Shown here in pieces: positions 28,245 through 32,281 of a DNA stretch of 36,262 bases. How positions within the stretch are numbered: the first letter of the stretch is position 1; each line of letters opens with the position of its first letter. The translations under genes and the position numbers were made by a program. The DNA comes from Acidimicrobiaceae bacterium (GTDB lineage Bacteria; Actinomycetota; Acidimicrobiia; Acidimicrobiales; Bog-793). The notes beneath the pieces are model-generated. The model was not told the DNA's origin. It was given only the letters and a program-made list of their open reading frames with translations, and did no database searches. The stretch lies in assembly GCA_027365385.1 (NCBI GenBank), contig DAHXNN010000215.1:1-36262 (forward strand), in the 5' to 3' direction.

Positions 28245-29600
28245 CTAGCCGAAAAGCCGGCGTACGTCGCGGAGAGCGTCGACCAGCTCGTCGACGTCCT
28301 CTTCGTCGTTGTAGAGGTAGAGCGAGGCGCGAGTGGTCGCCGGTACGCCGAGGCAGCGCATGAGGGGCTTCGCACAGTGGTGCCCCGCGCGGACGCAGAT
28401 GCCTCGCGTGTCGAGCACCTGGGCGACGTCGTGCGGATGGACGTCGCGCACAGCGAAGGAGATCACACCCGACCGACGCACCGGATCGGCTGCGGGGCCG
28501 AAGACCGTGACGTCGTCGCCGTGCTCCGACGCGAGGCGGTCGAGAGCGTATGCAGTGAGCGCGCTCTCGTGCGCGTGGACGCGCTCGAGGCCGACAGCGC
28601 TCAGGTAGTCGACCGCTGCACCGAGACCGACGGCCTCTGCGATCGGCGGCGTCCCCGCTTCGAACTTCCACGGCAGCTCGTTCGGCGTGAAGCCGTCGAG
28701 GCGCACGTCGCGGATCATCTCGCCCCCACCGAGGAACGGCGGCATCACCTCGAGGATCTCCTCGCGTGCCCAGAGCACGCCGATTCCCGTCGGGCCGAGC
28801 ATCTTGTGGCCGGTGAAGCCGAAGAAGTCGACGCCGAGAGCGGCGACGTCGACCGGGCGGTGAGGCACGAGCTGAGCGCCGTCAGCGAGGACGAGCGCGC
28901 CGGCACGCTTGGCCGCTGCCACGACCGGTGCCAGGTCGACGACGGTGCCGAGCACGTTCGACGCACAGGTCAACGCGACGAGCTTCGCTCCATCGACGAG
29001 CCGGTCGATATCGGAGACGTCGAGCTGGTAGTCGGCACCGAGACGCAGGTAACGCAGCTCCACGCCACGATCTTGTGCGAGCATCAGCCACGGCACGAGG
29101 TTCGCGTGGTGCTCGATCTCGGTGAGCACGACGACGTCGCCGGCCCCCAGCTCGTGGCGCGCCCAGCTGTATGCGACGAGATTGATCGCCTCGGTCACGT
29201 TCTTCGTGAAGACGATCTCCGTCGCCGGACGAGGCGCCCCGACGAACCGCCCGACGGCCACACGAGCGCTCTCGTAGAGGCGCGTCGCCTCCTCCGCGAT
29301 CGCGTACACGCCCCGGTGGACGTTCGCGTGGGTCGTCTCGTAGTAACGGTCCATCGCGTCGAGCACGGAACGGGGGTGCTGCGCGGACGCTGCCGAGTCG
29401 AGGTAGACGACGCGGCCACCTGGTCGGTCGGACGAGAGCAGGGGGAAGTCCGCGCGCAATGCTCGTGGGTCGAGATCGGCGTGCCCGGCCGCAGGCACCA
29501 CCCCGGCTCGACGTGGCGACCGTTCTCCCGTGGATCCCGTGGACCTTCTCTTGACGTCGGTGTCGAGGACGATTTTCGGCTCGGCGCTCATCTTTGCCAT
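28245..29600 (-). CDS. sufS: Cysteine desulfurase SufS
   Basis: YLDSAASAQHPRSVLDAMDRYYETTHANVHRG, FTGHKMLGPTGIGVLW (PLP lysine), GICVRAGHHCAKPLM. Confidence 0.95.
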   Translation of the reverse strand: MAKMSAEPKIVLDTDVKRRSTGSTGERSPRRAGVVPAAGHADLDPRALRADFPLLSSDRPGGRVVYLDSAASAQHPRSVLDAMDRYYETTHANVHRGVYAIAEEATRLYESARVAVGRFVGAPRPATEIVFTKNVTEAINLVAYSWARHELGAGDVVVLTEIEHHANLVPWLMLAQDRGVELRYLRLGADYQLDVSDIDRLVDGAKLVALTCASNVLGTVVDLAPVVAAAKRAGALVLADGAQLVPHRPVDVAALGVDFFGFTGHKMLGPTGIGVLWAREEILEVMPPFLGGGEMIRDVRLDGFTPNELPWKFEAGTPPIAEAVGLGAAVDYLSAVGLERVHAHESALTAYALDRLASEHGDDVTVFGPAADPVRRSGVISFAVRDVHPHDVAQVLDTRGICVRAGHHCAKPLMRCLGVPATTRASLYLYNDEEDVDELVDALRDVRRLFG

Positions 29601-30409
29601 CCTTCGTAGCCGTCACGCTCGAGGCGCTCGGCGAGCTCCGGTCCGCCGCTCTCGACGACGCGTCCCGCGACGAGCACATGGATCCTGTCCGGAGCGAGCT
29701 CGTCGAGGATGCGCCGGTAGTGGGTGACGAGGACGACGCCGAGCTGCGGGCGTGCCCGGCGGACCTCCTCGACCCCGCGGGCAACGGCCCGCACCCCGTC
29801 GATGTCCAGACCCGAGTCCGTCTCGTCGAGGACGGCGAGGTCCGGCTCGAGCAGCGCCATCTGCAGGATCTCGTTACGCTTCTTCTCGCCCCCGGAGAAG
29901 CCGTCGTTCAAGTGGCGCTCCCCGAAGGACAGGTCCATGCCGAGTCGCTCGAGCCACTCGCGCAGCTTGACGCGCACCTCGAGCACCGAGAGGTCGCCTC
30001 CGCGGCGTGCTGCCGCGGCCTGGCGGAGGAACTGCGCGATCGGCACGCCCGGGATCTCCTCCGGATACTGGAACGCGAGGAACATCCCGAGCTTCGCACG
30101 TGCGTCCGGGGAGAGCAGCGTCACGTCCTCGCCGCGAAGCGCGATGCGGCCCGAGTCGACGACGTAGGCAGGGTTGCCGAGAAGGACGTTCGCGAAGGTG
30201 GACTTACCGGAGCCGTTGGGGCCCATGATCGCGTGGAGCTCGCCGGCGCCGACCGTGAGGTCGACGCCACGCAGGATCTGCGTGCCCTCGACGCTCACGC
30301 GGAGGTCGTCGACGACGAGAAGTGGCACGTCCGGGGACGCGGGGCCTGCGCTCGTGCCGTGGCCGGCGAGAACGCTGTCGGTCGGAGGGGCGGCAGCCAT
30401 CGGTTCCAT
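29588..30409 (-). CDS. sufC: Fe-S cluster assembly ATPase SufC
   Basis: GELHAIMGPNGSGKSTFANVLLGNPAY, FLAFQYPEEIPGVPI, LNDGFSGGEKKRNEILQMALLEPDLAVLDETDSGLDIDG. Confidence 0.95.
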   Translation of the reverse strand: MEPMAAAPPTDSVLAGHGTSAGPASPDVPLLVVDDLRVSVEGTQILRGVDLTVGAGELHAIMGPNGSGKSTFANVLLGNPAYVVDSGRIALRGEDVTLLSPDARAKLGMFLAFQYPEEIPGVPIAQFLRQAAAARRGGDLSVLEVRVKLREWLERLGMDLSFGERHLNDGFSGGEKKRNEILQMALLEPDLAVLDETDSGLDIDGVRAVARGVEEVRRARPQLGVVLVTHYRRILDELAPDRIHVLVAGRVVESGGPELAERLERDGYEGWQR

Positions 30410-30484: not shown

Positions 30485-30705
30485 AGGGGAGTGGAGGCGC
30501 TGCGAAGACGCCCCCCGCGCGCGCCAGGGCAGGCGAGGCGCTCTCACCAGCCTCTCGACGGCGTAGCTGTGGACCTCGACGGCGGAGTCCTCGAAGCGCA
30601 GGGCCATGGAGCAAGGCTAGGCCGTCCACGAGCCTGGCCGGTCCTGGCCGCGGGATCTCGCCGAGCTGCTCGCGGGCAATGCACGACAAACGACGGCGAC
30701 GTTGG

Positions 30706-30711
30706 TATTCT
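30706..30711 (+). promoter_or_regulatory. Candidate -10 element (TATTCT) for the short transcript below
   Basis: TATTCT 11 nt upstream of AGAAAGGAGG; -35 not convincing. Confidence 0.4.
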
Positions 30712-30740
30712 GAGCGCACCAGAGAAAGGAGGTGGTCCAA

Positions 30741-30785
30741 CTGAGTAGTCAACTTGTTGGGACCCTGGAGGTGGCTGGCCGCTAG
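30741..30785 (+). CDS. Possible 14-codon leader-type peptide (CTG start): (M)SSQLVGTLEVAGR*
   Basis: CTG AGT AGT CAA CTT GTT GGG ACC CTG GAG GTG GCT GGC CGC TAG directly after the super-SD; GTG 30732 in the same frame lies inside the SD. The SD-to-CTG spacing is short. Confidence 0.35.
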   Translation: MSSQLVGTLEVAGR

Positions 30786-30922
30786 TCGGCAAGCTGGACC
30801 ATCTGGCGAAACCCACCAGACACCGTCGGCGCACCGGTTGGGAGCTGGTCCCGCCCGAGCAGTAGCCCGGGGCGTCGATGTCTTTCCCAGTAGCACGTCG
30901 CGGGCTGCCTTGCGGTCCGGCA

Positions 30923-30948
30923 CCGAGGGGCGCTCCGGCGCCCCTCGG
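30923..30948 (+). terminator. Perfect GC-rich hairpin, no T-tract (terminator-like)
   Basis: CCGAGGGGCGC-TCCG-GCGCCCCTCGG. Confidence 0.6.
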
Positions 30949-30985
30949 GCGCGCGCCCGGCATGGTTGGGCTGCACGCACTCCGC

Positions 30986-31021
30986 CGAGCGGTCATCATC
31001 GGGTCGAGCGGTCATCATCGG
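30986..31021 (+). repeat. Tandem duplication of a 17-bp sequence, period 19 bp
   Basis: cgagcggtcatcatcgg repeated at 30986-31002 and 31005-31021. Confidence 0.85.
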
Positions 31022-31062: not shown

Positions 31063-31626
31063 TCAGTAGCCGGTGCTCTTCGTCGTGGTCGTCTTCGTTC
31101 CCGCCGCCGACTTGACGACGATCGCATACCACTTGCCGAGGAACCCCTCGCCGTTGGCCTCGCCGCGCTTCTTGTCTCCCGAGAACGTGTAGAGCGGCTC
31201 CCCGTGGTAAGTCACCTGCGTCTGTCCCTCGGGGTTCTTCACGGTGCCGAGACCTGTGACGCCCTTGCCGCCGAGGACGCTCGTCGTCCCCTTCGGCACG
31301 ACGAGCGGTGGCCAGATCGTGATGCACTTGCCGACGCACGCGATCTTGCCGGGCTTGTCGAGAGTGAAGTGGTAGAGCGTCATCGCCTTCGCGTCGACGA
31401 GCACGACGCCGAGCTTCTTCACGCCTCCTTCGTAAACGAGGCGAGCTGTCTTGGCCTTCGCGGCCTCCGCGTGGGCAGCCGCCGGGGCTGCGACCGCAGC
31501 CGGCGCGGTCGCAGCGGCGAGAGCGCCGCCTGCGAGGAGCACCGGTACCAGCCGGCCGAGCGCCGTGCGGGCGCGTGCCGAGCGGGCCGGTGCCGCTGGG
31601 GCTTGAGCGTTCGTCGATGCCATCAC
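31063..31626 (-). CDS. Secreted protein with 'secreted repeat of unknown function' (COG4315-like)
   Basis: Signal-like Ala-rich N-terminus; GVVLVDAKAMTLYHFTLDKPGKIACVGKCITIWPPL and TYHGEPLYTFSGDKKRGEANGEGFLGKWYAI. Confidence 0.82.
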   Translation of the reverse strand: MMASTNAQAPAAPARSARARTALGRLVPVLLAGGALAAATAPAAVAAPAAAHAEAAKAKTARLVYEGGVKKLGVVLVDAKAMTLYHFTLDKPGKIACVGKCITIWPPLVVPKGTTSVLGGKGVTGLGTVKNPEGQTQVTYHGEPLYTFSGDKKRGEANGEGFLGKWYAIVVKSAAGTKTTTTKSTGY

Positions 31627-31782: not shown

Positions 31783-31873
31783 TAGACCCGCCTCGGGGGC
31801 GGACCGTGCCCGCGAGCGGGTCGACGTGCTCGAGCAAGAGTCCCTGCCACGAGGAGAGCGACCGTTGAGCGAG

Positions 31874-32281
31874 ATGCCTGAAGTGCTCTTCGTCTGTGTC
31901 CACAACGCTGGTCGGTCACAGATGGCGGCTGCGCTTCTCGACCACCATGGTGCCGGCCGGGTCCTCGTGCGTTCTGCAGGGTCTGCACCTGCGAGCGAGA
32001 TGAACCCCACGGTCGTCGAGGCGATGGCCGAGCTCGGGATCGACGTCTCGAAGGAGCTGCCGAAGCCGCTCACCCACGAGTCCGCTCGTGCTGCAGACGT
32101 GATCGTCACGATGGGTTGTGGAGACACCTGCCCGGTCTATCCAGGCAAGCGGTATCTAGACTGGGTGCTGGCGGATCCGGCAGGGCGCAGCCTGGCCGAG
32201 GTGCGCGTGATCCGTGACGAGATCGACCGCAAGGTGCGGAACCTGCTCGACGAGCTGTCGGACGAGGTCGCTGTCCGGTGA
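31874..32281 (+). CDS. arsC: Arsenate reductase, low-molecular-weight phosphatase type (TTG 31865 also possible start)
   Basis: PEVLFVCVHNAGRSQMAAALLDHHG, RSAGSAPASEMNPTVVEAMAELGID, VTMGCGDTCPVYPG. Confidence 0.9.
   Translation: MPEVLFVCVHNAGRSQMAAALLDHHGAGRVLVRSAGSAPASEMNPTVVEAMAELGIDVSKELPKPLTHESARAADVIVTMGCGDTCPVYPGKRYLDWVLADPAGRSLAEVRVIRDEIDRKVRNLLDELSDEVAVR

Follow-up and report, generated by a model that had tools for sequence, protein, structure and literature searches.

The window (the whole 36,262-nt stretch of DNA that we analyzed) contains a putative RNA gene on its forward strand, whose features are listed in Table 1. Upstream of the RNA, and divergent from it, are sufS and sufC, which are involved in SUF iron-sulfur cluster assembly (28245-30409 on the reverse strand, with sufC at 29588-30409). 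The downstream flank is an ORF at 31063-31626, also on the reverse strand, with a partial match to SCO0930-family lipoproteins. A short direct repeat (CGAGCGGTCATCATCGG, two tandem copies at 30987-31021) lies just downstream of the RNA. Further along, 31826-32281 (forward strand) encodes an arsenate reductase-like or low-molecular-weight phosphatase-like protein, whose NCBIfam matches are below the cut-offs.

Table 1. Proposed features of the RNA locus, in window coordinates.
Feature	Position	Strand	Evidence
Extended -10 promoter element, TGgTATTCT	30703-30711	+	Direct sequence; homolog conservation
RNA gene, homolog of RF02471 (Ms_IGR-5)	30718-30950 (both ends approximate)	+	Rfam and covariance models
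P0 5' strand, CCAG (pairs with 30765-30768)	30719-30722	+	Covariation
Extended Shine-Dalgarno (SD), 17 nt complementary to relatives' 16S 3' end	30723-30739	+	Core GGAGG at 30728-30732
P1 5' strand, GGTCC (element A, also the 3' part of the SD)	30734-30738	+	87.6% paired
Conserved micro-ORF, CTG start, 14 aa, TAG stop	30741-30785	+	Homolog and hold-out comparison
Element B, GGGACC (pseudoknot with D; alternative partner of A)	30759-30764	+	96.7% paired
P1 3' strand, GGACC (within element B)	30760-30764	+	Comparison
P0 3' strand, CTGG	30765-30768	+	Covariation
P2 5' strand, GGTGgCTGG	30770-30778	+	98.6-98.9% paired, 4 pairs with double changes (3' strands in A2 trimmed by complementarity, so counts lean towards P2)
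P3 5' strand, CGCTAG (holds the stop codon)	30780-30785	+	Covariation
Element C, GCTGG (long-range pairing with E)	30793-30797	+	92% paired, 3 pairs with double changes (A1 rows trimmed at E by a motif list)
P3 3' strand, CTGGCG	30803-30808	+	Covariation
P2 3' strand, CCAGaCACC	30816-30824	+	Covariation
P5 5' strand, TTGGG	30838-30842	+	4 of 5 pairs with double changes
Element D, GGTCCC (in the P5 loop)	30847-30852	+	A1 pairing; permutation test
P5 3' strand, CCCGA	30854-30858	+	A1 alignment
Element E, CCAGT	30887-30891	+	A1 alignment
Terminator-like 11-bp hairpin, UCCG loop	30923-30948	+	Direct sequence

The initial annotation, made from the sequence of the window, did not recognize a named Rfam family at this locus, but there is one. 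In a relaxed Rfam scan, 30718-30883 (forward strand) matches RF02471, "Actinobacteria sRNA Ms_IGR-5", with 42.7 bits (E = 1.1e-8). This is 2.3 bits short of the gathering score of 45, and a search of the window at the gathering threshold gave no Rfam match. RF02471 also matches 26 of 40 relatives at E <= 0.001, with 47.0 bits in a genome from the same genus and 45.6 bits in another from the order. The window shares with Ms_IGR-5 the SD motif, the B element, GAGGTGG, and the 3' hairpin, and the two are homologous over 30718-30883. A second line of support is R2, a covariance model from 21 loci, all from elsewhere in the phylum (outside the window's class) and all exceeding the RF02471 cut-off. 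In the window's genome, the sole match to R2 is the window (63.1 bits, E = 8.6e-16), so homology to Ms_IGR-5 type sequences was found with the window's own class kept out of the model. By these comparisons, 30718 to about 30950 is a divergent homolog of Ms_IGR-5.

The locus is conserved in related genomes. Our revised model, R1, matches 161 of 398 genomes in the phylum (106 of 247 genera), as compared to 89 of 398 for RF02471, and the matches are nearly always one per genome. The best-scoring homologous loci reach about 160-182 bits. Within the window's family, R1 matches 24 of 35 genomes. It has no match in G001 (same genus, 95% complete) or in finished genomes from the order, such as G116, which may reflect either loss or a gap in the assembly. 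That some well-assembled genomes from the order have no match suggests real loss or divergence beyond the model. Transcripts of homologs have been reported in Streptomyces lividans (PMC8079986), Mycobacterium smegmatis (PMC10454040), and S. avermitilis (PMC8780764). In the literature, under several names, we did not find a function for the mycobacterial homologs of Ms_IGR-5.

We estimated the ends of the RNA from conservation and pairing. Conservation steps up sharply at 30718, which is the expected +1, and together with the pairing of P0 this places the 5' end at about 30718. Upstream of +1, the best conserved stretch is TGnTAnnnT (51 homologs with B = GGACC); the TATTCT that had been noticed as -10-like (30706-30711) is part of this conserved extended -10 element. 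The 3' end, at about 30950, is placed by the perfect hairpin at 30923-30948, which is present as originally described. It has no U-run, and similar GC-rich hairpins close the RNA in most of the relatives shown.

Near the 5' end of the RNA, at 30723-30741, is AGAAAGGAGGTGGTCCAAC, which was thought to be complementary to the 3' end of 16S rRNA over 19 nt. The sequence is exactly as described, but the complementarity is slightly shorter. (The 16S 3' end is absent from the window's assembly, and we judged complementarity on relatives of the same family and order, whose 16S ends in GGCTGGATCACCTCCTTTCT.) Against these, 30723-30739 forms 17 contiguous pairs, including one G.U, and then there is an A.C mismatch. 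The predicted duplex energy is -31.4 kcal/mol, as compared to -13.0 kcal/mol for an ordinary strong SD. Also, across the 2.39-Mb assembly, AAAGGAGGTGRTCC is matched at 14/14 by AAAGGAGGTGGTCC alone, and the runner-up has one mismatch. The 16S-complementary locus is a real observation, beyond chance.

The SD core is predicted to be exposed both in a P0-P2 fragment and in the full-length RNA. In single-sequence folding, AAAGG in the core is unpaired with probability 0.84-1.0 in the 107-nt and 233-nt forms, and the SD is paired in a 175-nt truncation. The initial annotation had the SD sequestering itself through pairing of 30733-30742 with 30792-30801. We rejected this helix because its covariation is not above shuffles: 82.6% of cells are paired, as compared to 83.1% in shuffled alignments. 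Its predicted probability is at most 0.02. On the other hand, the idea of a short transcript that binds 30S subunits strongly fits the data, and ribosome footprints on MS_IGR-5 homologs from M. abscessus and M. smegmatis have been published (Ribo-seq; PMC4974804). A caveat is that small RNAs can give Ribo-seq footprints without translation (PMC4974804).

Just after the SD is the micro-ORF, which would encode L-S-S-Q-L-V-G-T-L-E-V-A-G-R-stop. The initial annotation mentioned it, with the correct CTG start and end, as a possibility; it turns out to be the key feature, and it is conserved across homologs, with a length of 10-16 codons. Among 109 homologs, 105 have a start codon 6-13 nt past GGAGG and an open frame to a fixed stop, while the other two frames do so in just 2 and 3 of the 109. 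In 105 of the 109, the stop has the same offset (82 TAG, 14 TGA, and 9 TAA), and such swapping among the three codons at a single position is the hallmark of a stop codon. Between the SD and the second GAGG there are 12 different distances, and all three residues modulo 3 are represented. When we shuffled the intervening bases, a mean of 19.6 and a maximum of 31 homologs kept the ORF, as compared to 107 observed (a count that includes three other-frame loci, described below, in their own frame). We also considered 40 hold-out loci, which R1 found but which had no part in its construction. Reading frames do not enter the scores of R1, but its columns do include the stop region. The micro-ORF is present in 39 of these 40 loci, and the fortieth (L166) appears to have ATA.

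The start codons include ATG, GTG, and TTG and, often at a spacing of 8 nt, CTG, ATC, and ATT. (Apparent ATC or ATT starts occur in L084, L089, L092, L097, L109, L163, L178, and L188.) Such ATC and ATT start codons are known from infC. They suggest a possible sensitivity to the fidelity of initiation (IF3).

The peptide itself varies. At the codon that follows GTG, homologs have A, T, V, P, S, L, H, R, F, Q, or M. In one lineage (L101, L104, and L111, plus six hold-outs: L179, L181, L183, L184, L186, and L187), the second half of the ORF is in another frame, but the conserved TAG is kept. This lineage is a natural experiment on which parts of the RNA matter. Since another frame is used and yet the stop is kept, translation rather than peptide sequence is, by this comparison, what is conserved. 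(In the same lineage, the hairpin with D appears to be swapped for a simple terminator.)

We then considered the structure of the RNA. We used two alignments: A2, with 71 sequences, for helices P0-P3, and A1, with 35 close homologs. Across P0-P3 in A2, 92.4% of cells are paired, and there are 151 cells with double changes, as compared to 48.6 after shuffling. The covariation score is 0.306, versus 0.141 for shuffled alignments and 0.02-0.061 for slid controls, and A1 has 52 double changes versus 16.5, with the caveat that kinship alone can exceed shuffles. At fixed offsets, P0 is fully paired in 95 of 109 homologs, with many different compensatory Watson-Crick combinations. P1 (A with B) shows little covariation, and A is nearly invariant. 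P5, B-D, and C-E are supported on the 35 close homologs. Also, variants of B fit their own 3' region better than the 3' regions of others: 4 of 5,000 permutations reach the observed mean. For example, L167 has GCGCGACC and GGTCGCGC, and L185 has GTGTGACC and GGTCACAC. B-D pairing is dispensable in the lineage that lacks D (the L101, L104, and L111 type).

Overall, covariation supports helices P0-P3, P5, and two long-range pairings, most of which overlap or adjoin the ORF. These helices are unlike the Rfam consensus structure for RF02471. Single-sequence folding of the 233-nt form gives P0 and P1, and P2, P3, and P5 are absent. The TCTGG/CCAGA hairpin of the initial annotation does appear in single-sequence folds (30802-30806 with 30815-30819), but comparison favors helices that cannot coexist with it: its TCTGG shares bases with the 3' strand of P3, and its CCAGA with that of P2.

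If the RNA were a leader, as the initial annotation allowed, its downstream gene should be conserved, and it is not. With genes called by a crude GC-position method, 65 of the 109 loci have a convergent gene as their nearest downstream neighbor, 33 have a co-directional one, and 11 have none. The Pfam families of the flanking ORFs differ between lineages, and the suf neighborhood is not kept in the other lineages that we sampled. As its neighbors vary and the gene downstream is convergent in most cases, the RNA is not a cis leader but a stand-alone unit. By comparison of sequences, then, it is a homolog of Ms_IGR-5 that stands alone, has a length of about 230 nt, and is normally present in a single copy.

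We propose, at roughly even odds, that translation of the micro-ORF gates the fold of this stand-alone RNA, so that the RNA is folded when untranslated and open when translated. In the compared sequences, the SD sits in the loop between P0 and P1, the ORF starts just after it, and the stop is inside P3; P2-P3, B-D, and C-E connect the two halves of the RNA, of which the 5' one is translated. The RNA probably changes shape under translating ribosomes. As pairing with 16S uses the 5' strand of P1, binding of 30S should free B for D: a bound 30S would open P1, and B would become available to D. A translating ribosome would unfold P0, P2, and P3, and at the stop codon it would cover or dislodge B and C. 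D, E, and the 3' strands of P2 and P3 would thereby be released. The RNA would resemble a leader-peptide switch without an attached gene, and its output would be in trans or on its own stability. The suggestion of a ribosome-interacting sRNA was right but incomplete, as the RNA carries a conserved micro-ORF.

Another reading, which we consider possible but rather unlikely, is that the RNA is a decoy or buffer for ribosomes. The extended SD would tie up 30S subunits, the ORF and its stop would merely release ribosomes, and the 3' structure would stabilize the RNA. The 17-nt complementarity to 16S (-31.4 kcal/mol predicted) and the published footprints (PMC4974804) would fit, and non-canonical starts would give a slow, occupying site. 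But a decoy would not need a stop that is fixed in P3, or pseudoknots that join the ORF to the 3' half.

It is improbable that the micropeptide is the functional product, with the RNA structure tuning its translation. The ORF is conserved, and E-V recurs in most lineages, but the residues that recur fall on nucleotides that are paired and invariant. Furthermore, there is free variation in the N-terminal half and in the codon that follows GTG, and the other-frame lineage has an unrelated C-terminal half. We disfavored a functional peptide because of that lineage and the free codon after GTG.

It is very unlikely that the RNA is non-coding, acting as an sRNA through base pairing (with 16S as one partner), and that its ORF is a by-product. 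Although Rfam and transcriptome papers class it as an sRNA (PMC8079986, PMC8780764), the start, frame, and stop are kept in the 109 and 40 sequences despite 12 different lengths from SD to GAG. Finally, it is hardly credible that the RNA acts in cis, as the leader peptide or attenuator of a gene downstream: the micro-ORF, alternative pairings, and terminator do resemble those of attenuators, but we rejected this reading on gene context, as downstream genes are not conserved, 65 of 109 are convergent (with 33 of 109 co-directional), neighboring families differ, and in the window the gene that follows (31063-31626) lies on the opposite strand. The statistics on the ORF and the gene context bring both the plain sRNA and the leader close to exclusion.

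A family that was catalogued only as a non-coding actinobacterial sRNA, and which is present in laboratory organisms such as Streptomyces and M. smegmatis, is now seen to have a micro-ORF that is retained very consistently and that has a 17-nt SD, frequent AUU, AUC, CUG, or UUG starts, and a stop that is fixed within the fold. More speculatively, and with considerable doubt, the RNA may be an attenuator without a gene: across the phylum, its fold would report on translation initiation (free 30S or the fidelity of initiation) and would signal in trans. We know of no regulatory-RNA class of gene-less attenuators. If the RNA does sense the capacity for initiation, then its regulation would be global, in a phylum that is rich in leaderless mRNAs.

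In dual-function sRNAs of the SgrS/SgrT or RNAIII type, the ORF is for the most part set apart from the base-pairing region. Like these, our RNA would have an ORF and a structured regulatory part in one molecule, and its ORF is conserved, with ribosome footprints published for homologs (PMC4974804). Unlike in these, the ORF overlaps B and strands of P0-P3, and the stop is fixed in the fold. RF02471 has been presented as an sRNA that lacks an ORF, whereas the homologs that we compared carry the conserved micro-ORF. Ms1 of mycobacteria is likewise a structured small RNA of actinobacteria, but, as outlined in the report on it, Ms1 interacts with the core of RNA polymerase (PMC4191392), while the RNA described here has an extended SD and a conserved ORF. 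There may also be a likeness in mechanism to attenuators and uORF switches, in which an ORF is combined with alternative structures; here, the ORF is conserved and the covarying helices overlap it. With such systems, including the uORF of rbf in Staphylococcus aureus as outlined in its report (PMC13009471), our RNA shares a short ORF, an extended SD, non-canonical starts, and, if our proposal is correct, a structure that is coupled to translation. Unlike leader-peptide attenuators and uORF switches, it has no downstream gene, and the sequence of its peptide is not conserved.
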